Assembly: GCA_026391835.1 (NCBI GenBank)
Contig: JAPLDF010000074.1
Coordinates: 62,001 to 126,000 of the forward strand
DNA length: 64,000 nt
Source: Bacteroidota bacterium
GTDB taxonomy: Bacteria > Bacteroidota > Bacteroidia > Bacteroidales > FEN-979
Direction of reading: 5' to 3'
Shown here: piece after piece, positions 43,941-56,804 of the stretch
How the letters are laid out: the number at the start of each line of letters is the position of its first letter
Position numbering within the stretch: position 1 is the first letter of the stretch
Notes under the pieces: generated by a model
Seen by the model: only the letters and a program-made list of their open reading frames with translations
What the model was told of the DNA's origin: nothing
Database searches by the model: none
Program-made: the position numbers and the translations under genes

Positions 43941-44393
43941 TCAGCCATTCACTTTGGGTGGGACATTCAATTGCAGCCAGTATAAGCCTGTGGTGCTGAT
44001 GGCATGAATAAATGAATCAAAATCAACAGGTTTCACAATATAACTGTTTGCGCCCAGCGCGTAAGCTTCCTGGATATCAGGATCCTCTTTGGATGAGGTG
44101 ATGATGACCACGGGAAGCATTTTGGTTGATTCGGTTGATTTCACTACTTTAAGCACCTCCAACCCACTGACCTTTGGCAGTTTAAGATCCAGAAAGATGA
44201 CTTTGAGTGTTTTTGATTTATCACGTTCCGAAAATTTCCCACGGCTGAAAATGAAATCAAGGGCCTCTTCTCCATTTTCTGCGACAAAAATATGGTTTGC
44301 AAGGTTGCCTTTTTTCATGGCCCTTATGGTCAACTCTGCATCGCTTGGATTATCCTCAACAATCAAAATATCAATAGGATCAAAAGGTTTCAT
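43941..44393 (-). CDS. Single-domain response regulator (Rcp1-like)
   Basis: A 150-residue stand-alone receiver domain. Phosphoacceptor Asp69 in VIFLDLKLP, acidic pair in LIVEDNPSDAE near the start, Thr in VVIITSSKED and the Lys of YIVKPVDF. The long loop before the phosphorylation site (FSRGKFSERDKSKTL) and the spacing match Rcp1-type regulators, which are often encoded next to PAS or phytochrome histidine kinases and lack an output domain. ATG 44393 is chosen because the longer frame starts at a TTG within the kinase gene. It lies 34 bases after the kinase stop. It probably relays phosphate within this signalling locus. Confidence 0.88.
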   Translation of the reverse strand: MKPFDPIDILIVEDNPSDAELTIRAMKKGNLANHIFVAENGEEALDFIFSRGKFSERDKSKTLKVIFLDLKLPKVSGLEVLKVVKSTESTKMLPVVIITSSKEDPDIQEAYALGANSYIVKPVDFDSFIHAISTTGLYWLQLNVPPKVNG

Positions 44394-44427
44394 GCTTTTC
44401 GCTTTATTGTTTGGGTGACCTGGCTGG

Positions 44428-46602
44428 TCATCCCTCGTTTTCAACTTTCAAAGGTAGCGAAAAATAAAATGAGGCGCCCTTATCAATTTCTCCTTTCGCC
44501 CATACTTTTCCCCCGTGACGGTGAATGATGCGCTGAACTATCGCCAGCCCGATCCCTGTGCCGTCGAACTCCTTTACACTGTGAAGGCGCTGAAATGCAC
44601 CGAAAAGTTTATCCAGGTACTTCATATCGAAGCCGGCGCCATTGTCGGCGATACAATAGACAACCATGTCCTGCTGGATTTCGGACGACAGGGTAATCAC
44701 GGCTTGTTCCCGCTGCGACGAAAATTTAATCGCATTGCCTATCAGGTTCACAACCACCTGCCTTACCAGCACATTATCGCCCATTGAAGAGTGGACATTG
44801 GAGACATTAAAACTGGTTCGTAGTTTCTCCTCCGGGCTGGTTATCTCGGCGTATACAACTTTGGCCAGGTTTTCCATGTTTATCCTGGCCAGGTGGAGGT
44901 CGGAACGGTTAAGCCGGGACAAAGCAAGCAGGTCATCAATAAGCTGCCCCATCCTGACGGCATTTTCCTGGATAACTGAGCATACCCGTTTACCTTCATC
45001 GTCAAGCAACGGTTTATAATCTTCAAAAAGGATGCGGGTAAAACCGTCAATTGCTCTCAGCGGCGCCCTAAGGTCATGGGAAACTGAATAGGAAAATGCC
45101 TCCAGCTCCTTATTTGCCGCTTCCAGCTGTGCCGTGCGCTCCGACACCCGGTTTTCAAGCTCATCATTTAATTTTTTTATTGCCTCTTCGGCAGCACGGC
45201 GAACGGATATATCTTCGATGTAACCTTCCAGATAGAGTATATCCCCGTTGTCATTGTAAATTCCCCGGCATCTTTCCCACACCCATTTGGTTTTGCCTGT
45301 TGCTGTTTTTATGGGGTACTCACCTTCGAACATCTCTCCCCTGACCAGGACATCCTGCCACTTTTTCCAGACGGTTTCGCGGTATTCCTCTAAAATAATA
45401 TCGTTGAATAAAACTGTTTCGTTTTCAATGAAATCCTCCCTGGGATATCCTGTTACCGCCATGCAGCCATCACTTACAAACAACATTTTACCATCATAGC
45501 CATCCTTGCAGCGATAGACCATCCCCGGAAGGTTGCTGACAAGGGTAGACAACTGCTGTTCACTTTGTGCCAGCTGTTTGGACATTTCCCGCTCACTGGT
45601 ACTGTCCTGGGCGCTCCCCACCGTCCCTATCATCTTGCCGTTGAGGTCGTACAGGGGTGATTTCCTGACATCCAGGAAAAGAAACTTCCCTTTAACATTG
45701 CCAAATTCATCAAACTGTCCGGGTTTGCCTGACTCAATTACGACCTGGTCGGAATCTATGCAAAGTTCACCGAAGGTGTGCCAAACAGGATTATCGGGAT
45801 GCAGTTCACGCTGCCTGTTTGCAAAGAACATGTCTCCTTTCCCAATGGGTTCATCCGTATCCGTGGCAACCAGCAGGTTATCACAAACCGACTTGTTAGC
45901 AAAGATGAATTTCTTGTCAAGGTCCTTTGCCCATAGCATGTCGGTCATGTTGTCGCTGATGGAACGAAACATAATGGACAACTCCATAAATTTCTGCTGG
46001 CTTTCCTTTAACGTCTCTTCGGAGCGTTTTCGCTGATCAACCTCCGCCTTCAGGTCCTCCATCAGGTTGAGACTTGCCTGTTTGGTGGTTTCAAGCGCTT
46101 CATAGGATTTTTTAAGTTCCCGGTCGGCAGTTTTCAAATCCTCCAGCTGCAACTGGAGAACCCTGGTTCTTTCAACAATGGTTTGCTCCAGCAGCTGTTT
46201 TTCCTTGTGAACAATATCTTCGGATTGTTTGACGCGGACCATTGTAGTGACAACGGCAATCAACTCAGCCTCAACGATCGGTTTGGAAAGAAACGAATCA
46301 GCTCCGAGCTGAAGAGCCCTTATCCTGCTTGAAGAATCAGTTTTCTCGGCAGTAAGTATGATCACCGGGATTCTTTGTAAAGCAGGATCCGATTTAAGAA
46401 TTCTGCAGGTTTCAAAACCATCCAGACCAGGCATAACCAGGTCAAGGAGAATCAGGTCGGGTTTTTCAAAACCGGCTTTTTCAATTCCCTCTTTGCCCGA
46501 ACGTGCCGAACAATAAATAACACCAGGGAAGGAGATGGTAAGCATTGCCTGCAGAACCACAAGATTGTCATTGTTATCGTCGATTGCAAGAATTTTGATC
46601 AT
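44428..46602 (-). CDS. Receiver-PAS-PAS sensor histidine kinase
   Basis: A 724-residue soluble histidine kinase with no membrane segment. N-terminal receiver about 1-120 with Asp54 (LILLDLVMPGLDGFE). Coiled coil about 125-200. PAS1 about 205-335, with FVANKSV-like ligand pocket (KKFIFANKSVCDNLL). PAS2 about 340-465 (GMVYRCKDG, PAC LYLEGYIEDISVRR). HisKA about 490-560 with phosphorylated His509 (SVSHDLRAPLRAI). HATPase about 600-720 with N, G1 and G2 boxes (LIGNAIKF, DNGAGFDMKY, GTGIGLAIVQRI). The N-terminal receiver suggests that it is itself a target of another kinase, such as the hybrid kinase encoded just upstream. It is followed by a single-domain regulator. Confidence 0.92.
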   Translation of the reverse strand: MIKILAIDDNNDNLVVLQAMLTISFPGVIYCSARSGKEGIEKAGFEKPDLILLDLVMPGLDGFETCRILKSDPALQRIPVIILTAEKTDSSSRIRALQLGADSFLSKPIVEAELIAVVTTMVRVKQSEDIVHKEKQLLEQTIVERTRVLQLQLEDLKTADRELKKSYEALETTKQASLNLMEDLKAEVDQRKRSEETLKESQQKFMELSIMFRSISDNMTDMLWAKDLDKKFIFANKSVCDNLLVATDTDEPIGKGDMFFANRQRELHPDNPVWHTFGELCIDSDQVVIESGKPGQFDEFGNVKGKFLFLDVRKSPLYDLNGKMIGTVGSAQDSTSEREMSKQLAQSEQQLSTLVSNLPGMVYRCKDGYDGKMLFVSDGCMAVTGYPREDFIENETVLFNDIILEEYRETVWKKWQDVLVRGEMFEGEYPIKTATGKTKWVWERCRGIYNDNGDILYLEGYIEDISVRRAAEEAIKKLNDELENRVSERTAQLEAANKELEAFSYSVSHDLRAPLRAIDGFTRILFEDYKPLLDDEGKRVCSVIQENAVRMGQLIDDLLALSRLNRSDLHLARINMENLAKVVYAEITSPEEKLRTSFNVSNVHSSMGDNVLVRQVVVNLIGNAIKFSSQREQAVITLSSEIQQDMVVYCIADNGAGFDMKYLDKLFGAFQRLHSVKEFDGTGIGLAIVQRIIHRHGGKVWAKGEIDKGASFYFSLPLKVENEG

Positions 46603-46680: not shown

Positions 46681-49653
46681 TTAAGTTATCCATTTGTTGA
46701 TTGTTTCCTCAAAAACAGCCACATCGATCGGTTTGGAGATATAGCCATCAAATCCGTGGGCGAGGATCTGTTCGCGGTCGCCTTTCATCGCTTTGGCCGT
46801 TACTGCGATGACGGGTATTTGCCGGAGGAGATCATTTTTCCTGATCTCATCAAAAACCCTGAAACCATCCATCCCGGGAAGTGAAATATCGAGAAGGATC
46901 ATATCAGGCTTCTGGTTGCCGGCAGCAGCGACTCCTTCGGGTCCGTTGGTGGCTGTTATTATGGTATGTTTATCCTGCAGCAGCACTTTTATGGTTGTTT
47001 CGTTGTCGGGATTGTCGTCGATGATCAGTATCCTGGCAGGCGCCTTTGTTTTCTGACGGGTTGTCTGTGCCGGAATAATTCCAGGCACAGGTTCCTGGTT
47101 CGGGAACATCATCTGCCTGACAATCGAAAGAAGTGCGATTTTATTGATATCTCCCTTTTGAACAAGCTGATGGATGTTGTTTCTCGTAAGGCGGGTGAGA
47201 TCGGAAGCATCCAGGTACATGGCTGTAAGAATGAGTACGGGGATGTTTGCGGTTTCACTATTGCCCCTGATCTTTTCCAGAACTTCGAAACCATCGATTC
47301 CCGGCATCATCAGATCGAGGATGATGGCATCGGGAATTTTCACTTTAACTGCTTCGAGTGCTTCGAAACCATTCCTCGCGATATCGACCTGGTAACCTTG
47401 CTCCCGTAGAATCCAGGATAGCTGGACGATGGCCGGTTCGCTGTCTTCAACAATAAGAATGGTCTTTTCGGATGCCTGGGATTTTTTCAGTTCCGAAAGC
47501 TGCGCTTCCGGCCTATATGAACTGCTGAGCCCGGGATGAGCCATTGACAATGGTTTTCCTGAAGGCGGTTCGATGGGAAAAATGACCGTAAATGCCGATC
47601 CCTTTCCAGGTTCACTCTCGACATCAATCCTGGCGCTCAGTTTCATGGCAAATTTCTCTGCAATGGCCAGCCCGAGACCTGTTCCTCCATATTGCCTTGA
47701 TGTGGTTCCGTCAACCTGGCGGAATTCATTAAAAATAAAGGGCAACTGATTTGCAGGAATTCCGATGCCGGTGTCCTTTACTGTCAATGCAATCTCTGAA
47801 CCGTTCGATTTTGCTGACACTTCAACCGAGCCGGCATTGGTGAATTTCACGGCATTGGTGATAATATTTTGCAGGATATGATGGCACTTGTCGCGGTCGC
47901 TGGTAAGCATGGGAATTTCAGTGCCGATCAGGTTCTTCACTTCAAGATTCTTTTCCCTGATCTGCATCTGCAGCGATGCCAGGATATGATGCACGATCTC
48001 ATTCACAGGGAAAGTCTCATATTGAATTTCCGTTTTGCCGGATTCAATGCGCGAAAGGTCAAGAATATCATTGATCAGTGCAAGCAGGTTTTTACCATTG
48101 CGCTCAATGATCTCGAGGTAGCTGTATTCTTCGGATGAAATCTGGTTTTTCAACCGCTTGTACAACACACCTGAAAGTGCTATTACCGAGTTCAGCGGGG
48201 TCCTCAGTTCATGGCTCATGCTCGACAGAAACTGGCTTTTCAGCTTGTTTGCCTCATCAATCTGATGCTTTTGAATTTCCAGCTCCGTGTTTTGCTCAAC
48301 CAGTTCACGGGTTTGTACCTGGAGTTCTTTTGCCTGTATGCTCAGTTTTTCATTCTGCCTGTCAAGCACCGCCGCATTTTCCCTGATGCGTTCAAATGCA
48401 AGAATTGCATTGACACTCATGTTCAGGTTTTTCTCAGTCTGCCTCACAATCTCATGCGCTTCGGCGGTAAAGGCCGAAATGCTTGCCAGTGATACAATTG
48501 CAATGACCTTCTCACGCCTGATCACCGGGATGGATATGATTTCAGCCGGCCTCACTGAGCCGGCCACCGTTGAAAAAGTAAAAACAGAATCGGCAGGAAT
48601 CTGTGTTATTTTAATGAGTTTCGCGCCAAGAAGCACCTTCCCGAACTCACCTTCATTGGTTTCTGCAGAAAATGACCTTAGATTTTCCCTGGAGAAACCA
48701 CAGGAAAAATAGGGTTCAAACATGTCGCTATCTTCGTTTAACAGGTAGAAAGCACCAAGGCTGGAATTTGTTTTTTCCATGAGCAGATTCAGGACAGAAC
48801 TGCAAAATGCAGGCAGGTCGTCATTCGCCAGCATGGCATCAGCAATTTGCAGGGTGCCGTTTTTCACATTCATTTCAAACTGGACCGTTTCAGCAAGCTT
48901 GTTCATGGAGGCTGCCAGGGTACCAAATTCGTTTGTTGACTGATAATCATTGCGTACATGATATTGGCCTTCCCCGTAATTTTCCGAGAAACTGACCAAT
49001 CCCTGCAGCGGTTTTGAAATTCCACGCAGGATAAATATGATGATAGCCATAGATCCTGCAAAAATCAGGATGACAACCAGCCACAGTTGAAGGTATAAGA
49101 GATTTCGTCCCTTTTCGGCAGACTGATAAAAACTTTGTGCCCGGTTGAGTGCAAATTCCTTCAAAATCTCAACCTTTTTCATTGCCAATGCCACATGAAT
49201 TTCCCCGATGGTCTTTGTCCGCATGATCGCCTCCCGCTTTTGCCCGGCCTGGCTCAGCCTGATGGTCTCATCTCTTACCGGTTTCCAGTCTTTAATGGCA
49301 CTTAAGGCACTATCCACCGAACTTTTTTTCCCCAGGTAACTAAGATAAATCGTATCAAACAATCGATAGACCTCGGATTCTCTTATGTTGATGTCATGAA
49401 CAGCTGCGTTCAGTTCTTCCTGGTTTTCAGACAAAGCCACATTTTTCATACTTCGCTGGATCGCCATGATATTGGTCTCAATCTCGCGTACTGCTATATT
49501 CACCTTGAAGGGATGCTGGTATAGATAATCGGTATTTTGCCAGATCACCCCGGAGTGCCAGAAAGCCATACCCCCCAATAGCAGTACCATCGAAAGGACG
49601 GCACCGAAGCCGATCAGCAGCCTGGTTTTGATTTTTAAATTTTTGGCCTGCAT
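46681..49653 (-). CDS. Membrane hybrid histidine kinase with GAF and two receivers
   Basis: A 990-residue membrane sensor kinase. TM1 about 10-32; extracytoplasmic four-helix-bundle sensor about 35-185, of the kind found in chemoreceptors (EIETNIMAIQRSMKN); TM2 about 188-212. HAMP about 213-265 (GISKPLQGLVSFSENYGEGQY). GAF about 280-425 (LGAFYLLNEDSDMF). Coiled coil about 430-470. HisKA with His481 (SMSHELRTPLNSV). HATPase about 580-710 (NIITNAVKF, DTGIGIPANQ, GTGLGLAIAEKF). Receiver 1 with Asp780 (AIILDLMMPGIDGFE) and receiver 2 with Asp922 (MILLDISLPGMDGF). It resembles the GAF-containing hybrid kinases of multi-sensor relay loci. It lies between the CheR-type gene and the REC-PAS kinase. 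Confidence 0.92.
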   Translation of the reverse strand: MQAKNLKIKTRLLIGFGAVLSMVLLLGGMAFWHSGVIWQNTDYLYQHPFKVNIAVREIETNIMAIQRSMKNVALSENQEELNAAVHDINIRESEVYRLFDTIYLSYLGKKSSVDSALSAIKDWKPVRDETIRLSQAGQKREAIMRTKTIGEIHVALAMKKVEILKEFALNRAQSFYQSAEKGRNLLYLQLWLVVILIFAGSMAIIIFILRGISKPLQGLVSFSENYGEGQYHVRNDYQSTNEFGTLAASMNKLAETVQFEMNVKNGTLQIADAMLANDDLPAFCSSVLNLLMEKTNSSLGAFYLLNEDSDMFEPYFSCGFSRENLRSFSAETNEGEFGKVLLGAKLIKITQIPADSVFTFSTVAGSVRPAEIISIPVIRREKVIAIVSLASISAFTAEAHEIVRQTEKNLNMSVNAILAFERIRENAAVLDRQNEKLSIQAKELQVQTRELVEQNTELEIQKHQIDEANKLKSQFLSSMSHELRTPLNSVIALSGVLYKRLKNQISSEEYSYLEIIERNGKNLLALINDILDLSRIESGKTEIQYETFPVNEIVHHILASLQMQIREKNLEVKNLIGTEIPMLTSDRDKCHHILQNIITNAVKFTNAGSVEVSAKSNGSEIALTVKDTGIGIPANQLPFIFNEFRQVDGTTSRQYGGTGLGLAIAEKFAMKLSARIDVESEPGKGSAFTVIFPIEPPSGKPLSMAHPGLSSSYRPEAQLSELKKSQASEKTILIVEDSEPAIVQLSWILREQGYQVDIARNGFEALEAVKVKIPDAIILDLMMPGIDGFEVLEKIRGNSETANIPVLILTAMYLDASDLTRLTRNNIHQLVQKGDINKIALLSIVRQMMFPNQEPVPGIIPAQTTRQKTKAPARILIIDDNPDNETTIKVLLQDKHTIITATNGPEGVAAAGNQKPDMILLDISLPGMDGFRVFDEIRKNDLLRQIPVIAVTAKAMKGDREQILAHGFDGYISKPIDVAVFEETINKWIT

Positions 49654-49693: not shown

Positions 49694-50515
49694 CTAATGT
49701 TTTACAAAAACATTTCCATATGGAGAAAACTGGTGAAATTTACCGGACTGTTCAACAATAAGCTGCTCTGATTCACCAACCAGCAAGTACCCGTTCCGGC
49801 TTATTGACTGGTAAAGTTTTTCAAGGATCATCTGCTGAATATCGTGGTTATAGTATATCATCAGGTTGCAACAGGACACCAGGTCAAAATCTGCAAAAAT
49901 ACCTGCAGGCGGCGACGAATAACCGGGGTCGGTGATATCGCCCTGTGAAAAATCAACAAGGCTCCTGATGCGATCATTGACTGAATATGTTGATTTTTTC
50001 CTGGTGAAATACCGGTCGATGTAGGACAATCTGACCTGCTGGACCATATTCGCATCATACATTCCCAGGCGTGCTTTTGCAAGGGCTGCAAGTGAAATAT
50101 CGGTGCCAAATACCATGACCGATGCATGGTAATTACGGTCACTGATCACCTTATCTGAAAGCATGGCCAGGGTATATGCTTCAGGACCGTCGGCACAGCC
50201 AACCGACCAGATCCTGAGGGTATCAGAATTATTTTTCTGCCTTGACTGGATCAGGCCGGGCAGGATAAATTCCTCAACAAGAGATAAGTCGATCGAACTT
50301 CTGAAAAATATTGTGTAGCATATATTCAGGGTTTCAGACAGTTCTGCCAATTCACCGTGATCACCCGAGATGTAATCCAGGTACCCTGCCAGGTTCACAA
50401 CATTGACCTCGTCCATCCTGCGGGCGAGTGTCTTCTTCAGAAATGTTTCGGAATATACGGACAAACCCTTCCCAAAGGTGAACTCAACTGCTTCGATAAA
50501 CTGGCGGGTTGTCAT
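49694..50515 (-). CDS. CheR-type protein methyltransferase
   Basis: A 273-residue protein of the CheR family, which uses SAM to methylate glutamates on chemoreceptor-type helices. All-alpha N-terminal part about 1-75 (FGKGLSVYSETFLKKTLARRMDE). SAM domain from about 80: CYTIFFRSSIDLSLVEEF, motif I IWSVGCADGPEAYTLAML, ATDIS-like FGTDISLAALAKARLG, and a closing VSCCNLMIYYNHDIQQMILEKL with LVGESEQL. In typical CheR the last motif reads CRN-hydrophobic-IYF; here the Arg is Cys. ATG 50515 is chosen, since the longer frame overlaps the sensor gene upstream. No CheB, CheA, CheW or chemoreceptor gene is in the window; the only four-helix-bundle partner is the hybrid kinase next to it. Confidence 0.87.
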   Translation of the reverse strand: MTTRQFIEAVEFTFGKGLSVYSETFLKKTLARRMDEVNVVNLAGYLDYISGDHGELAELSETLNICYTIFFRSSIDLSLVEEFILPGLIQSRQKNNSDTLRIWSVGCADGPEAYTLAMLSDKVISDRNYHASVMVFGTDISLAALAKARLGMYDANMVQQVRLSYIDRYFTRKKSTYSVNDRIRSLVDFSQGDITDPGYSSPPAGIFADFDLVSCCNLMIYYNHDIQQMILEKLYQSISRNGYLLVGESEQLIVEQSGKFHQFSPYGNVFVKH

Positions 50516-50525
50516 TATTGCGCTA

Positions 50526-53500
50526 TTAACCGTGTACTTTGTATTTTTCGGGCTTGTTGTCGTGAACAAGCAATTCATTGATCTCCTTTTTAAGTTCGAT
50601 CATTTTCAACTCCCTCCCGATCATCAGGCTGTTAAACCGTTCCAGTTCCATTGCTTTTTCTTTTAACGCCTCTTCGGATAATTTCCTGTCGGTGATGTCC
50701 CTCGTTACGCCATGAATCCCGATCCACTCACCATTCTCCCCAAGGTATGGCGTCATCAGCAGTTCACCCCATTTGGTACCACCGTTTTTACAGACATACT
50801 CCAGGCATTGCGTGTTGCTGTATCCATTCAATTTTTCCGGCTCTGCCATTAATCTCGGCAATTCATTCCTGAAGAGGTGCTGTACAAGTACAACTGAGTC
50901 CGGGGCAAACCGGTCTTCTGCTGTTTGCTCCAGGTACTCTTCGATGCTGAACCCTGAAAACTGTTCCACCGATTTGGATACAAATGTGCTCTTTCCGTTC
51001 AGGTCAAGCAACCATACAACATCGGTCATTTTATCGGTTATCAGTTTATACAGTTCCCTGCTTTCCTGAAGTGCCTTCTCTGCTTTAATTTGCTCTGTGA
51101 TATCATGAAATATGGACTGGTACGTCCCATCAGGCATCATTTTGGTGTGCATCTCCACTGGGATTCTTGCACCATGGGGCTGGCAGACCACCCTGCGGCT
51201 TACAACCATGTCGCCCTTTTCAAGTAAATCATACCTTAGCGGGACATCATTGAGTGAATCAGCATTGAACAGTACATCGATCTGCATCCCGGCCAGGTCT
51301 TCCATATCCCTGCCTGCCAGGGTTTGCATGTATGAATTTGCCCCTGTGATAAATCCCTCTTTCGAACCCAGGAGAATTCCATCGACGGCCGACTCAACCA
51401 GTTCCCTGTATTTCACCTCACTCACATGGAGGGCCTGTAACGTTTGCAGCGTTTTGGCCTCACTCCTCCTGCGTTCAGTAATCTCAATTTCAAGTGCCCT
51501 GTTTGATTTTCGCTGAAGAACGATCTTTACGAAACTGAAAATAATGACACAGATTGTCAGAAAAATGAGCAGGATGAACCACCATGACTGGTAAACAGGA
51601 GAATTAATGGTAATGGTTCCCGATTTTGAAACCTCCGACCATTTACCGGCGTCGTTCCTCGCCTGTACAACAAACTGATAATTGCCTGGATGTATCCCGG
51701 CATACTTAACTTTATCCAGGTTTGCCTGTTTCACGAATTGCCATTCCTGGTCGAATCCTTCCAGTTTATACCGGTAGATGAGCAAGTCTTCATTTACGAA
51801 GGAGATTCCCCTGAAATGGAAAAACAGGGTATTGTCATAAAACCCGATGGTGCTTTTTTCTCCCAACGGGTAGCGAACGCCCCTGTTGTCTTCGAGATCA
51901 AGTAATTTAACAACCGGAGTCCTGGCTTTTAACTTTGAGAACCCGGGCAAAAAGCAGGAAAGTCCCATGTCGGTTCCAACCCAAACTTTTCCATGAGAAT
52001 CGACAAGACCGGCCGAACGGTTTGTCTCCCTGCCGGCAAGTCCGTTTTGCAGACTGAATTTTTCCAGCCTGTTTTTCCCGTCCCATTGGTACAGGCCATT
52101 GTCTGAGCCAAGCCAATAATTATCATCATGGTCCTGGAAAATGAAATAAACAGGGCTGTCGATGCTGATCCCGTTTTTGGTAAATTTACGGATCCGGTCA
52201 TTTTCCAGCACGCACAGCCCGTTCAACGTACCGACAAATTCCGTCCCTTCCTTGTTCCTGTAATATGAAAAAACACTCTGTGTCTTGACTTCATCGTCTA
52301 AGAGTATTCTCTTTACCCCATCACTGTAAATTTTAAACAGGCCATACAATGATGTCCCGACGATCTCGCCGGGTACCGACGCAAATATTTTCCTGAATGG
52401 GCAGTTGATTTTTTCATTGTGTTCGTATGGTATAAACTTGCCTTTGTCCAGATAATAAAGCTTCCGGTTGGTTCCCAGCCAGATCTTCCCGAGGGCATCC
52501 TGATGAATTGTCGCAGCCATCTCCGTCGAATCAACGCGGTACCATTTGACAGTCCCGTCAGGTTTCAGCTGTCCAAATCCAAGACTGGCTGAGGCAAACC
52601 AGACATTTCCCAGGTTGTCCTGCATCATGTTGAGAACCCTTCCCAGGTTGATATCTGAACCCGGAAACCTGATCCTCTTGTATGAATGCTGATCATATAC
52701 TGTCAGCCCGGTATTGTGCCCCAGCACTATTTTACCATCTTTTAATTCAACAATCGCAGTAACCTCATTGTCAAGCAATCCATCGTTCTCAAAATAATTC
52801 ATCTGGAGCACGTTGTTTATTTTATCGATGCCCCGGGTATCTGTAAACCAGATATTTTGTTCCCGGTCAACAAAGACTGATGTAGCCCCGTTTGAAGAGA
52901 AACCATTCCTGACCATTAACGGAGCAGCCGCATCACGGTTGCCACTGATAAAATATTTTGCCCAGTTGTTTCCAAAGAAAATGTTTCTGTTTTCATCAAT
53001 GGCCAGGTATGCGTCGATGGAAATATCCGGCGCAGGGAGGGAAAACCCATCCTGGAAAAGTGTCATCTTCCCGAATTGCCGGTATGAGAGCCGGTTGTGG
53101 TTTAATATCCAGAGTTTTTCCTCTGGTTTGCCGGGGTGTTCAAATTTTATTGCAAGGATTGCTTGTCCTTCACACTTAAAAAAAATTTTCAGAATCCAGT
53201 GCTTTTGTTCCATCACCGCGATGCTTACACCGAATTTGGTGAGGATATAAAACTTCCCGTTGATTGCGGTCACGGATAAAATGATATTGTTTCTATAATC
53301 GTCCGATAAAGTGATATGGTTCCAGCGGCCGTTTTGGTAGATGTCAATCCCGCAATTGCTCCCGACACAAATGACCGGATTGTCATCAACATAGATGATG
53401 TCAAATGAAGTTGCCTCTATATCCTTCCTGGTGGTGGCAGGAAGGATACGCTCCCATTTGTCATTTTTACGGAACACGATTGTATCAAGCAACCAGGCGG

Positions 53501-53789
53501 GAACACCCCAGATAGTTCCCCTTTCATCACATTTCACTTTCAGGAAATTCTGTTGGGGCAACCCCCTGGATGGATCATAATTTGTAAAACTGAAACCATC
53601 AAAGGAAGAGATGCCCCTGTGGGTAGCAAACCACATGTCCCCGCTGCCATCCTGGCACACATCATTGACAACCCGCGTGGGCAACCCATTTTCAATTGTG
53701 TACGATTTCGTAAAATAGTGCTGGGAGTAACCGGTTTGAGGGTACAGCAAACCTGCAACAACGAGGAGTAACAAGTTTATTTTATTCAT
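50526..53789 (-). CDS. Beta-propeller/Y_Y_Y membrane sensor with two PAS domains and C-terminal tail, no kinase
   Basis: A 1087-residue sensor. Signal peptide about 1-22. A two-component-type periplasmic propeller spans about 25-640 with repeats such as DMWFATHRGISSFDG, NVWFASASLGFGQL, KIWLGTNRKLYYLD and KVWVGTDMGLSCF. Y_Y_Y domain about 650-730 (LIYRYKLEGFDQEW, GNYQFVVQARND). One membrane segment about 733-755. Cytoplasmic PAS1 about 790-905 and PAS2 about 909-1035. A tail of about 45 residues (RELKMIELKKEINELL) ends the protein. In classical hybrid two-component systems a histidine kinase and AraC-type output follow Y_Y_Y; here both are absent. The tail is shared with the two upstream neighbours. 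Its stop is 10 bases before the CheR-type gene. Confidence 0.9.
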   Translation of the reverse strand: MNKINLLLLVVAGLLYPQTGYSQHYFTKSYTIENGLPTRVVNDVCQDGSGDMWFATHRGISSFDGFSFTNYDPSRGLPQQNFLKVKCDERGTIWGVPAWLLDTIVFRKNDKWERILPATTRKDIEATSFDIIYVDDNPVICVGSNCGIDIYQNGRWNHITLSDDYRNNIILSVTAINGKFYILTKFGVSIAVMEQKHWILKIFFKCEGQAILAIKFEHPGKPEEKLWILNHNRLSYRQFGKMTLFQDGFSLPAPDISIDAYLAIDENRNIFFGNNWAKYFISGNRDAAAPLMVRNGFSSNGATSVFVDREQNIWFTDTRGIDKINNVLQMNYFENDGLLDNEVTAIVELKDGKIVLGHNTGLTVYDQHSYKRIRFPGSDINLGRVLNMMQDNLGNVWFASASLGFGQLKPDGTVKWYRVDSTEMAATIHQDALGKIWLGTNRKLYYLDKGKFIPYEHNEKINCPFRKIFASVPGEIVGTSLYGLFKIYSDGVKRILLDDEVKTQSVFSYYRNKEGTEFVGTLNGLCVLENDRIRKFTKNGISIDSPVYFIFQDHDDNYWLGSDNGLYQWDGKNRLEKFSLQNGLAGRETNRSAGLVDSHGKVWVGTDMGLSCFLPGFSKLKARTPVVKLLDLEDNRGVRYPLGEKSTIGFYDNTLFFHFRGISFVNEDLLIYRYKLEGFDQEWQFVKQANLDKVKYAGIHPGNYQFVVQARNDAGKWSEVSKSGTITINSPVYQSWWFILLIFLTICVIIFSFVKIVLQRKSNRALEIEITERRRSEAKTLQTLQALHVSEVKYRELVESAVDGILLGSKEGFITGANSYMQTLAGRDMEDLAGMQIDVLFNADSLNDVPLRYDLLEKGDMVVSRRVVCQPHGARIPVEMHTKMMPDGTYQSIFHDITEQIKAEKALQESRELYKLITDKMTDVVWLLDLNGKSTFVSKSVEQFSGFSIEEYLEQTAEDRFAPDSVVLVQHLFRNELPRLMAEPEKLNGYSNTQCLEYVCKNGGTKWGELLMTPYLGENGEWIGIHGVTRDITDRKLSEEALKEKAMELERFNSLMIGRELKMIELKKEINELLVHDNKPEKYKVHG

Positions 53790-54879
53790 GGATAATATAT
53801 TTGTTTTCTTTTCCCATGCTGAGAAGCAGAGAGTTAATCTCTTTCTTCAATTCAATCATTTTCAGTTCCCTCCCAACCATCAGGGTGTTAAAGCGCTCAA
53901 GTTCGGCGGCCTTTTCTTTCAGAGCCTCTACTGCACGTTTACGTTCGGTGATGTCAATGGCAATACCGCCCAGCAAGGGTTCTTTCCCTTCACGGGGGAT
54001 GATAAATTTTTGCGTTTCATAATTACGCTCTTCCCCGTCTATTCCGGTGACAGTTTCTTCAATTTTAATAAAGCCAGCCTCCATCGCCTTCTGGTCGTCG
54101 GTAAGTAGTTTTTCACCGAATTCGCCCGGGAAAAATTCCGGGGGTGTCAACCCCAGCCATTCAGAAGCGCCCAGCACTTCATCCATGTTTTTATTGATAA
54201 AAATGGATCTGTAACTGCTATCCTTGATGAAAGTAAATGCAGGTAAATGGTCCATGAACAGTGCAAACTTGTCTTCACTCTCCTTCAGTGCATTTTCAGC
54301 TTGCCGGCGACCGGTGCTGTGCGCCTGGTCACTCAATATTTTCCCGATCAGCAGGGTGGCAAGGGGATAAATCCCAAGAATGGTAAGTGAGATTGTTTTA
54401 AAAGTGAACATTCTCAATGGCGCCGGGATCAGAAACGTAAGCAGGACCATCACTACATGCACCAATAACCCGATACCATATAAAAAGAACGCATTTGACA
54501 CGTAATGCGACATTTTTGGGTGATGGTGAAAAAGCACCCCGATCAGGGTTGACGATAAAATAACCGATACACCCATGTATATACCGGCACCGCCAAGGCA
54601 GATCCGGTAAACCAGTGCAATGGAAGCTGCAATAAGACCGGCAACAGGTCCGAAAAACAGCCCGCAGAGACTGAGTACGACACTTCGCCCGTCAAAAAAG
54701 ACCCCTGGTGTAAGCACAAAGGGATCAAGCATGCCAAGCATGGCAACCAGGCCGAACAAGGTTCCCTGCAACAGTACCCCCCTGGTCGTATTTCGTTTCC
54801 ACCGGTTGTCGATAAACCCGGATAACACGCTCACCGAAACCAGCAGGGCAAGATTGAAGATTAATTCAACGATGATCAT
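53782..54879 (-). CDS. LytS-type membrane sensor with PAS domain and C-terminal tail, no kinase
   Basis: A 365-residue protein. Five to six membrane segments about 1-175 of the 5TM-5TMR_LYT type (FGLVAMLGMLDPFVLTPGVFFDGRSVVLSLCGLFFGPV-like segment, read in pieces at about 45-85), the receptor module of LytS-like sensors. PAS domain about 195-315 (LPAFTFIKDSSYRSIFINKN, PAC GIAIDITERKRA). A final helical tail (RELKMIELKKEINSLL, then KYIIHE) is nearly identical to the tails of its two neighbours. No histidine kinase, GGDEF or HTH domain is present. The start overlaps the upstream gene's end by four bases, and its end overlaps the propeller sensor start by eight bases, so the three are tightly coupled. 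Confidence 0.88.
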   Translation of the reverse strand: MIIVELIFNLALLVSVSVLSGFIDNRWKRNTTRGVLLQGTLFGLVAMLGMLDPFVLTPGVFFDGRSVVLSLCGLFFGPVAGLIAASIALVYRICLGGAGIYMGVSVILSSTLIGVLFHHHPKMSHYVSNAFFLYGIGLLVHVVMVLLTFLIPAPLRMFTFKTISLTILGIYPLATLLIGKILSDQAHSTGRRQAENALKESEDKFALFMDHLPAFTFIKDSSYRSIFINKNMDEVLGASEWLGLTPPEFFPGEFGEKLLTDDQKAMEAGFIKIEETVTGIDGEERNYETQKFIIPREGKEPLLGGIAIDITERKRAVEALKEKAAELERFNTLMVGRELKMIELKKEINSLLLSMGKENKYIIHE

Positions 54880-56804
54880 GAGGAGTGGGGTTTTTGATGA
54901 ATTACATACTTATCTTCTTCTCCAAGCCTGTTTAACAACACATTTATCTCCTTCTTCAGGTCGATCATTTTCAATTCCCGGTCAACCATCATATGGTTGA
55001 ACCATTCCAATTCATCGATTTTCTTTTTAAGTGCCTCCTCAACTTTCTTCCGGTCGGTAATATCCCGGGCGATGGCGGTTATCTCATCCGGGCCGTTGGG
55101 AACCATCCTGGCTTCGAAATCACGCATACCTGTTCCAGGCGTTGGCAGCTGGTATTCAAACAGCACCAGTTTCCCGTGATCCAGGGTCGACTTAATTTTT
55201 TCTTCAATAAGGTCGGCAAACCATGAAGGGGTAAGATCCCTGTTATTCTTTCCAATTATGGAAGCTGACTGGTAATAAAGGTCCTCCTTCCCGGCCTTAT
55301 AATCAAGGTATGTTCCATCCCTGGTCATGCGGAAAATCAAATCAGGAATTGCATCAAGCAGGGCCCTGGCATACTGTTCGCTTTTAAAGAGAGCCTCTTC
55401 AAAGCGTTTACTGATAATGTATTCCCAGGCAAGATTGGCCAACTGGGTTACTACGTCGACATCATTGTTGTCATAATCAATGGGTTTATTGCCAACCCCA
55501 AGAATTGCAACAACTTTGCCGGCCCGGATGATCGGAACCGTCAGCTCTCGTACAACTGTCGCATGCCCTTCAGGCAATCCCTTGCGTCCCGGGGTGTTTG
55601 CATAGTCATTGTGGATAACCGGCCGCCGCTCGCGCAGGCTGTCGGCCCAGATTCCGGCAAGTTCGATCGGGTAATGCATTCCATTGCCTTCAGCAGCGCA
55701 GAAATTTTTCAGGGTATTGGTTGACCAGGCCTGGAGCGAAATTTTCGTTTCATCTTCATCCACAAAGTGGAAGAATGCTATTTTGCTGTCGGTGAGAATT
55801 TCAGCCTTATCAATGGCCATCGTAACAAGGTGGTTCAGCGGTTGCTTCAGGGCAAATTCACCAAGGGCCAGGTTTTCGGCCATCAGCTGCTCTTTTTTCT
55901 TGCGGATGGTGATATCCCTGGCAACATGCACCGTACCTGTAAGTTTCCCTTTTTCATCAAATATCGGGGTGGTGGTAACATCGTAGATTTCTCCACGTTT
56001 ATATGCCATTACCTCAGAATTTTCTTCCTTTCCGCTCCTCATTGACCTGCTGTGCGGACAAAAATCCGGAATCGACGGAAGACCATGTACAATATCAAAA
56101 CACTGGCGGCCTGTCAGATCTTCAACCCGGTGACCCAGTTTCGCAGCCATGGCCTTATTTGCCTTGACAATGCGGTGATCCGTGTCAATGATCGCAATAA
56201 GATCGGGAATGGCATCGAACGTTGATTCCCAGTCATCAAGCACGCGGATAAGTCGTTTCTCAACCTGTTCCTGCTTTTTTATCCGGTCGAGGTTCGTCAG
56301 TGCAAGCCCCAGGTCTTCAGAAATATCAGTAAACAACTCAACCTCCTCGCTGTTTTCGGCCATCGATCCCGGGGCTGTCACCGTGAGGTAGCCCCAGTGG
56401 CTTTGCTTGTACCTGATCCTGGTTGACAGGATATAATTTTCGGGATATGCCTCCCGTAACAAACAATCGCCGCAGTCGTGACCGGTATGTCTTACCTGGC
56501 ATGCATCAAGGCCCTCTTCGAGGCACCTGACACAATCGGGGCGGAATCCCCCCTGCAATGCGGTACTAAAACGGTTGGAATCCATTTTCAATCCTGCAGA
56601 AACGAATTCCCTGAATGTCCCGTCTTCATTGATCAGTATTATCCAGGCGCCGGAATACATCCGGGTGGAGATCAACGTCTCACATGCTTTTTGCGTTAAT
56701 TCCGCTGCATTGTCGACACTTACAATAAGCTGATTGATCCTGCGAATCGCTTTCAGGACTGTAATTCTTTCATCTTCAACATGCAATACATTCGGTTTAT
56801 TCAT
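54876..56804 (-). CDS. GAF-PAS-GAF-PAS cytoplasmic sensor with C-terminal tail, no kinase
   Basis: A 642-residue soluble sensor, first gene of the signalling locus. GAF1 about 20-180, with a Cys-rich insert (DCVRCLEEGLDACQVRH, then DCGDCLLRE) that could hold a metal or redox site. PAS1 about 190-310 (FDAIPDLIAIIDTDHRIVKA). GAF2 about 315-470 (SKIAFFHFVDEDETKISLQA, GKVVAILGVGNK). PAS2 about 475-595 (LDAIPDLIFRMTRDGTYLDY). Tail from about 597, with RELKMIDLKKEINVLL and KYVIHQ. No catalytic output domain is present. The stop overlaps the LytS-type gene by four bases. The Cys pattern in GAF1 (C-x2-C and C-x2-C) is directly visible; ligand identity is unknown. Confidence 0.88.
   Translation of the reverse strand: MNKPNVLHVEDERITVLKAIRRINQLIVSVDNAAELTQKACETLISTRMYSGAWIILINEDGTFREFVSAGLKMDSNRFSTALQGGFRPDCVRCLEEGLDACQVRHTGHDCGDCLLREAYPENYILSTRIRYKQSHWGYLTVTAPGSMAENSEEVELFTDISEDLGLALTNLDRIKKQEQVEKRLIRVLDDWESTFDAIPDLIAIIDTDHRIVKANKAMAAKLGHRVEDLTGRQCFDIVHGLPSIPDFCPHSRSMRSGKEENSEVMAYKRGEIYDVTTTPIFDEKGKLTGTVHVARDITIRKKKEQLMAENLALGEFALKQPLNHLVTMAIDKAEILTDSKIAFFHFVDEDETKISLQAWSTNTLKNFCAAEGNGMHYPIELAGIWADSLRERRPVIHNDYANTPGRKGLPEGHATVVRELTVPIIRAGKVVAILGVGNKPIDYDNNDVDVVTQLANLAWEYIISKRFEEALFKSEQYARALLDAIPDLIFRMTRDGTYLDYKAGKEDLYYQSASIIGKNNRDLTPSWFADLIEEKIKSTLDHGKLVLFEYQLPTPGTGMRDFEARMVPNGPDEITAIARDITDRKKVEEALKKKIDELEWFNHMMVDRELKMIDLKKEINVLLNRLGEEDKYVIHQKPHSS

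Follow-up and report, generated by a model that had tools for sequence, protein, structure and literature searches.

The stretch of DNA analysed here, called the window, comprises 64,000 nucleotides from a Bacteroidota bacterium (GCA_026391835.1, contig JAPLDF010000074.1, 62,001-126,000), and coordinates are positions within it. Its minus strand encodes, in this order, three sensors, a CheR-type methyltransferase, a hybrid kinase, a REC-PAS-PAS kinase and a single REC protein. According to Pfam, sensor 1 (54876-56804, 642 amino acids) is built of GAF/PAS domains, sensor 2 (53782-54879, 365 amino acids) of a 5TM-5TMR_LYT membrane module and PAS_4, and sensor 3 (50526-53789, 1087 amino acids) of a Reg_prop propeller of the two-component-regulator type, Y_Y_Y and two PAS domains. 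The three open reading frames (ORFs) overlap one another by 4 and 8 bases. None of the sensors has an output domain, and no kinase, GGDEF, EAL or HTH domain was found in any of them by Pfam. All three end in a common C-terminal helix, named TAIL (consensus LExxNxLMVGRELKMIELKKEIxxL), and a second conserved helix, named MED (consensus LExxxxAxLNxLEDLxxEK), lies on output enzymes near TAIL genes.

The TAIL of sensor 1 (54879-55019, minus strand) consists of the core MVDRELKMIDLKKEIN followed by KYVIHQKPHSS; that of sensor 2 (53785-53919, minus strand) is predicted as a single continuous helix behind PAS, and that of sensor 3 (50529-50666, minus strand) was placed by alignment with the other two. 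Compared with sensor 1, the tails of sensors 2 and 3 showed 65% and 59% identity, with 33 invariant columns and gaps at the ends only. This bears out the original prediction, made from the letters of the window, of three sensors with unlike inputs, no output and one common tail. Across 60 aligned codons, third positions differed at 34-35 sites, first positions at 19-26 and second positions at 10-14, indicating that the likeness is kept by selection at the protein level and speaking against a recent duplication of the tail. Two further canonical TAILs were found in the same genome outside the window, carried by PAS proteins 356 and 540 amino acids long, and because such ends occur again in this genome and recur across phyla, the likeness is not due to chance. 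A PAS-repeat protein elsewhere in this genome (L230:4881-8371) ends in a degenerate TAIL lacking the RE core, and a photolyase-like gene comes directly after it.

Downstream of the sensors, the CheR-type methyltransferase (49694-50578, minus strand) and the single-domain REC protein (43941-44444, minus strand) were identified from ORF and Pfam. The hybrid kinase (46681-49653, minus strand) contains 4HB_MCP, HAMP, GAF, HisKA, HATPase and two REC domains; MED was looked for in it and not found, and it was therefore rejected as the TAIL partner. The REC-PAS-PAS-HisKA-HATPase kinase (44428-46602, minus strand) carries MED (KQASLNLMEDLKAEVDQ) in a box at 46000-46113 on the minus strand (LETTKQASLNLMEDLKAEVDQRKRSEE), between REC and the first PAS, and this was the sole MED match in its genome at E<=1e-5, the cut-off used for MED throughout (E<=1e-6 for TAIL). 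Of the two kinases named earlier as possible partners of the tails, this one is the proposed partner of all three TAILs and the hybrid kinase is not.

The R-E core of TAIL was invariant in 70/70 aligned rows from bacteria and archaea. The tail motif first described included a terminal K-Y-x-(I/V)-H; the core proved to be widely shared, but this terminus is a local extension outside it, seen mainly in Bacteroidota rows. In TAIL, the heptad core has Arg at one of its positions, and a further hydrophobic stripe runs within the motif. An AlphaFold2 model of sensor 2 (51 sequences) gave a PAS fold and one helix, residues 117-160, over the tail, with a mean predicted local distance difference test score (pLDDT) of 96.2 and a predicted template modelling score (pTM) of 0.77. 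Among 267 unique cores from the fetched loci, 224 were no more than 60 residues from the C-terminus, 3 were 61-100 residues away and 40 were internal. TAIL had no family match in Pfam or NCBIfam, and a solved homologue of TAIL or MED was rejected, as no structure in PDB resembles either.

A pattern scan of genome contigs yielded at least 72 TAIL loci, and the phyla among the loci listed include Bacteroidota, Delongbacteria, Omnitrophota, Deltaproteobacteria, many Patescibacteria, several archaea and others. Both in archaea and in several phyla of bacteria, TAIL forms the end of PAS, GAF, REC and membrane sensors; REC is the input domain in some cases (L231, L246). In searches with the 70-row alignment, the motif was present in 28/247 Bacteroidota genomes (22 of the 28 from one family), 32/198 genomes of the phylum of locus L035, 40/200 of the phylum of locus L017, 28/221 Patescibacteria and 10/23 archaea. 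Three archaeal genomes (G250, G475 and G476; L241-L247) encode six to eight TAIL proteins each, several without an adjoining kinase. In a protein at another archaeal locus (L020:1196-4987), the kinase core is close to the N-terminus and is followed by several PAS domains, with TAIL at the C-terminus; the product of the next gene is TAIL-ended as well. A plasmid search was uninformative on TAIL, because in the five rows listed, of 82 records, the matches covered the membrane and PAS parts and stopped at query residue 311.

In the first loci, gene order was examined around 86 TAIL genes. The gene directly after TAIL was a same-strand kinase in 27/85 cases, and the second next gene was one in 19/73; the corresponding counts were 5/74 and 4/64 upstream, and 1/63 and 1/52 at the fourth and fifth positions downstream. 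By eye, several other next genes were kinase-like but cut by a contig end, or were substrate-binding-like or hemerythrin-like and followed by a kinase, and in the second locus set the order TAIL-then-kinase was seen in many loci. Substrate-binding-like genes lie directly behind the TAIL gene in L022, L040, L049, L065 and L080, with a MED kinase following in 4/5; these proteins may be a periplasmic signal source. A general linkage of the tail to CheR was not borne out: besides the window, CheR genes were found in the first loci at L012 and L014, and in the second set at L228, L231, L265 and L268. RsbM, which is taken up below, is CheR-like.

MED was first noticed ahead of HisKA in short kinases adjoining TAIL genes, and in an alignment of 63 rows its Ala and Asp were invariant and its Asn nearly so. 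In the fetched loci, MED was found in 59/76 kinases within three genes downstream of TAIL, compared with 8/32 other kinases (Fisher 5.9e-7), a count that took only genes with both HisKA and HATPase matches and set apart seven kinases that themselves contain TAIL. Two of these seven had a MED match, and by eye at least L240, L263 and L264 show a MED-like stretch. Among the 17 near kinases scored negative for MED, 14 were, by eye, either a second kinase where another protein has MED or carriers of a divergent MED-like stretch.

MED is also found on enzymes other than kinases. It precedes HD-GYP in six proteins (L272, L275, L248, L023 and two in L269, one of them weak), GGDEF-EAL in L274 (E 0.005) and SpoIIE in two L271 proteins, and all of these adjoin TAIL genes. 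In the window, a common kinase, as first proposed, is the likely partner, and elsewhere the partner may be an HD-GYP, GGDEF-EAL or SpoIIE protein. The two SpoIIE-phosphatase proteins of L271 (501-6746) stand beside a substrate-binding/PAS protein whose TAIL precedes a V4R domain. Some kinases carry tandem MED boxes at their N-termini (five in L336, four in L153, three in L284 and two in L079), spaced exactly 21 residues, or three heptads, apart; these are possibly several sockets on one enzyme.

Co-occurrence was determined in a set of 866 genomes, comprising 247 Bacteroidota, 198 genomes of the phylum of L035, 200 of the phylum of L017 and 221 Patescibacteria. MED was detected in 6/247, 23/198, 20/200 and 21/221 of these, respectively, and the MED genomes also had TAIL in 6/6, 21/23, 20/20 and 21/21 cases. 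Overall, TAIL was present in 68/70 MED genomes versus 128/866 genomes at large (Fisher 2.5e-62), and 72/80 MED matches lay within 10 kb of a TAIL match. As a control, the unrelated sensor domain CHASE was counted in the set of 198 genomes; TAIL was present in 10/27 CHASE genomes (odds ratio 4.0, p 0.004), and this mild enrichment indicates that signalling-rich genomes account for part of the co-occurrence. The Patescibacteria form the cleanest set, because their MED rows came from an earlier scan, although they include G251, the genome of L028.

Both motifs were also found within one chain. In 19 kinases of family f18, which we take to be Chlorobi, the order is PAS, TAIL, a variable linker, MED and HisKA; TAIL is present in 22 f18 genomes, and 19 of these supplied the aligned kinases. 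The linker is unconserved while TAIL and MED are both kept, and it measures 51-83 residues in 17/19 rows, the other two values (105 and 198) appearing mis-anchored. An AlphaFold2 model of one fused kinase (19 sequences; mean pLDDT 75.5, pTM 0.35) placed TAIL in a helix at 115-158, a linker part with confidence below 50 at 181-203, and MED at the start of a helix at 206-279 that is continuous with the phospho-accepting helix. In Proteobacterial fusions, PocR is added in L263, and in L253, L255 and L259 a MED-like stretch (E 0.08, 0.2 and 0.001) lies between two TAILs.

Covariation was analysed on 152 unique TAIL-MED pairs, reduced to 116 at 80% identity, of which 74 with a recognised H-box served as control. 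In the 116 pairs, the top coupling joined TAIL R+5 with MED A+3 (z 9.8; maximum of 300 shuffles within broad groups, 7.6). Where MED A+3 was aromatic, TAIL R+5 was non-hydrophobic in 17/18 boxes; where it was Asn or Asp, R+5 was hydrophobic in 85/96, and two other boxes were split. Summed coupling in the 74 pairs was z 5.7 for TAIL-MED and z 3.9 for TAIL-HisKA. This signal is suggestive at most, and co-inheritance could be its source.

Taken together, TAIL and MED very probably belong to one coupling system. The docking or coupling role originally assigned to the tail is supported by gene order, genome-wide co-occurrence with MED, natural fusions and the predicted long helix, from which we infer physical docking. 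The genetic link is strong, and it is likely that the two motifs act as plug and socket between separate sensors and separate outputs; the two helices probably touch in a helix bundle, as judged from these indirect lines. Sensor and enzyme would both be dimers, the sensor presenting two TAIL helices that pack on the enzyme's two MED helices; a change made by the PAS, GAF, REC or membrane input would reach the enzyme through this bundle, much as it does through the covalent coiled coil of ordinary sensor kinases. In the window, the three sensors would act on the kinase at 44428-46602 via the MED box that lies between its REC and PAS domains. By analogy with the Lvr precedent (PMC13269768), the REC of that kinase may be fed by the hybrid kinase, and the single REC protein would, again by analogy, be the likely output of the cluster. 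As a guess, CheR may tune the helices by methylation, the precedent being RsbM/RsbK (PMC4574943). The chance is about even that a general TAIL/MED plug-and-socket exists in bacteria, including Patescibacteria, and archaea, in which sensors of many kinds (PAS, GAF, REC, membrane, periplasmic) drive outputs of many kinds (histidine kinase, HD-GYP, GGDEF-EAL, SpoIIE phosphatase) from separate genes, with TAIL-MED-TAIL relays, multi-socket enzymes of up to five MED boxes, and, in the genome of the window, at least five sensors at three places converging on the one MED kinase found.

Several observations weigh against such a coupling. Eight MED matches had no TAIL match within 10 kb; five of these were inspected, and only in G434 (L352:3226-7278), a genome counted as MED-only, was a weaker TAIL gene seen near the MED gene, on the same strand and just under the cut-off, the other four having none in the stretch fetched. 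Conversely, 60/128 TAIL genomes had no MED match at the cut-off; 18 of these 60 are f18 genomes, and most f18 kinases examined show a MED stretch by eye, the aligned fused kinases indicating that the MED model misses divergent MEDs. The kinases L019, L237 and L265, near TAIL, show no MED by eye. The original linkage of tail homologues to kinases, evident in the gene order above, fails for some archaeal TAIL genes (L243-L247), which have no kinase beside them; the MED genome searches covered bacterial sets only. Moreover, TAIL loci, in part from the counted genomes themselves, were the source of the MED model, and the genomes are not independent. Finally, strong couplings (z>4) among the 74 pairs were more numerous for TAIL-HisKA (6/756 cells, top 7.0) than for TAIL-MED (1/837, top 4.3); covariation was not above this control and was rejected as proof of contact.

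The excess of TAIL-HisKA cells, with the evidence for contact all being indirect, fits an arrangement in which TAIL and MED share one signalling complex without touching, TAIL binding PAS, DHp, the catalytic domain or an adaptor and MED, for example, stiffening the kinase helix. We consider this unlikely, because MED is the feature common to such unlike enzymes as the kinase, HD-GYP, GGDEF-EAL and SpoIIE partners, all of which a docking site on the kinase core would not serve. Somewhat less probable still is that TAIL is a mere dimerising cap or coiled-coil leftover without function in trans, its co-occurrence with MED arising from operon descent and transfer. TAIL and MED genes are indeed close neighbours that travel together, and permutation within broad groups leaves descent in, but the invariance of R-E goes beyond the need of a plain coiled coil, and the fused kinases keep TAIL and MED and not the linker between them. 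That the tail is mainly a CheR methylation substrate, an adaptation module, is very improbable, since CheR is present in few TAIL loci, even though it sits between sensors and kinases in the window, L012, L014 and L231 and, according to PMC4574943, RsbM methylates the signalling helix of the hybrid kinase RsbK.

The plug-and-socket reading was then compared with known systems. In chemoreceptor-CheW-CheA, H-NOX/HnoK and NosP/NahK, separate sensors control a kinase in trans, and to our knowledge no TAIL/MED pair is known in any of them. Searches of the open-licence literature by motif strings gave no paper, and among the records listed for topic searches no title or abstract describes the pair. 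Separate sensors acting on a kinase are a known kind of system, the TAIL/MED pair being apparently undescribed, and this pair may well be a connector of a new kind.

The S-helix (PMC1592074) is a helix of about 40 residues joining sensory domains to kinase, HD-GYP, EAL, PP2C and cyclase outputs. MED is placed similarly, between domains or ahead of an output. The S-helix, however, has an ERT signature and is almost always flanked on both sides by domains of its own chain, whereas TAIL usually ends the chain. The ERT signature was found in the motif half of 0/70 TAIL rows (anywhere in 5/70) and in 2/63 MED rows, and its absence together with the C-terminal position ruled out TAIL as an S-helix.

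The kinase at 44428-46602 resembles LvrB, whose upstream kinase is LvrA (PMC13269768), in its N-terminal REC with a helix behind it and a hybrid kinase encoded adjacently, but LvrB is REC-DHp-CA only, and the window adds MED, two PAS domains and three separate sensors. With REC, helix, DHp and catalytic domain in one chain plus extra PAS domains, the kinase is an LvrB relative of another layout; NCBIfam gave a partial LvrA match, far under the cut-off. The split kinases CheA3/CheA4 (PMC3591291) also spread one kinase function over two proteins, but there ATP binding is separated from phosphotransfer, and here the proposed split is between sensor and kinase.

Sensors without an output domain are encoded in many genomes. 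If TAIL/MED docking is true, two short motifs would predict sensor-enzyme partners from sequence, operons with several sensors, and some kinases that lack their own sensor, would be explained, and a ready-made connector for building sensor circuits would be at hand.

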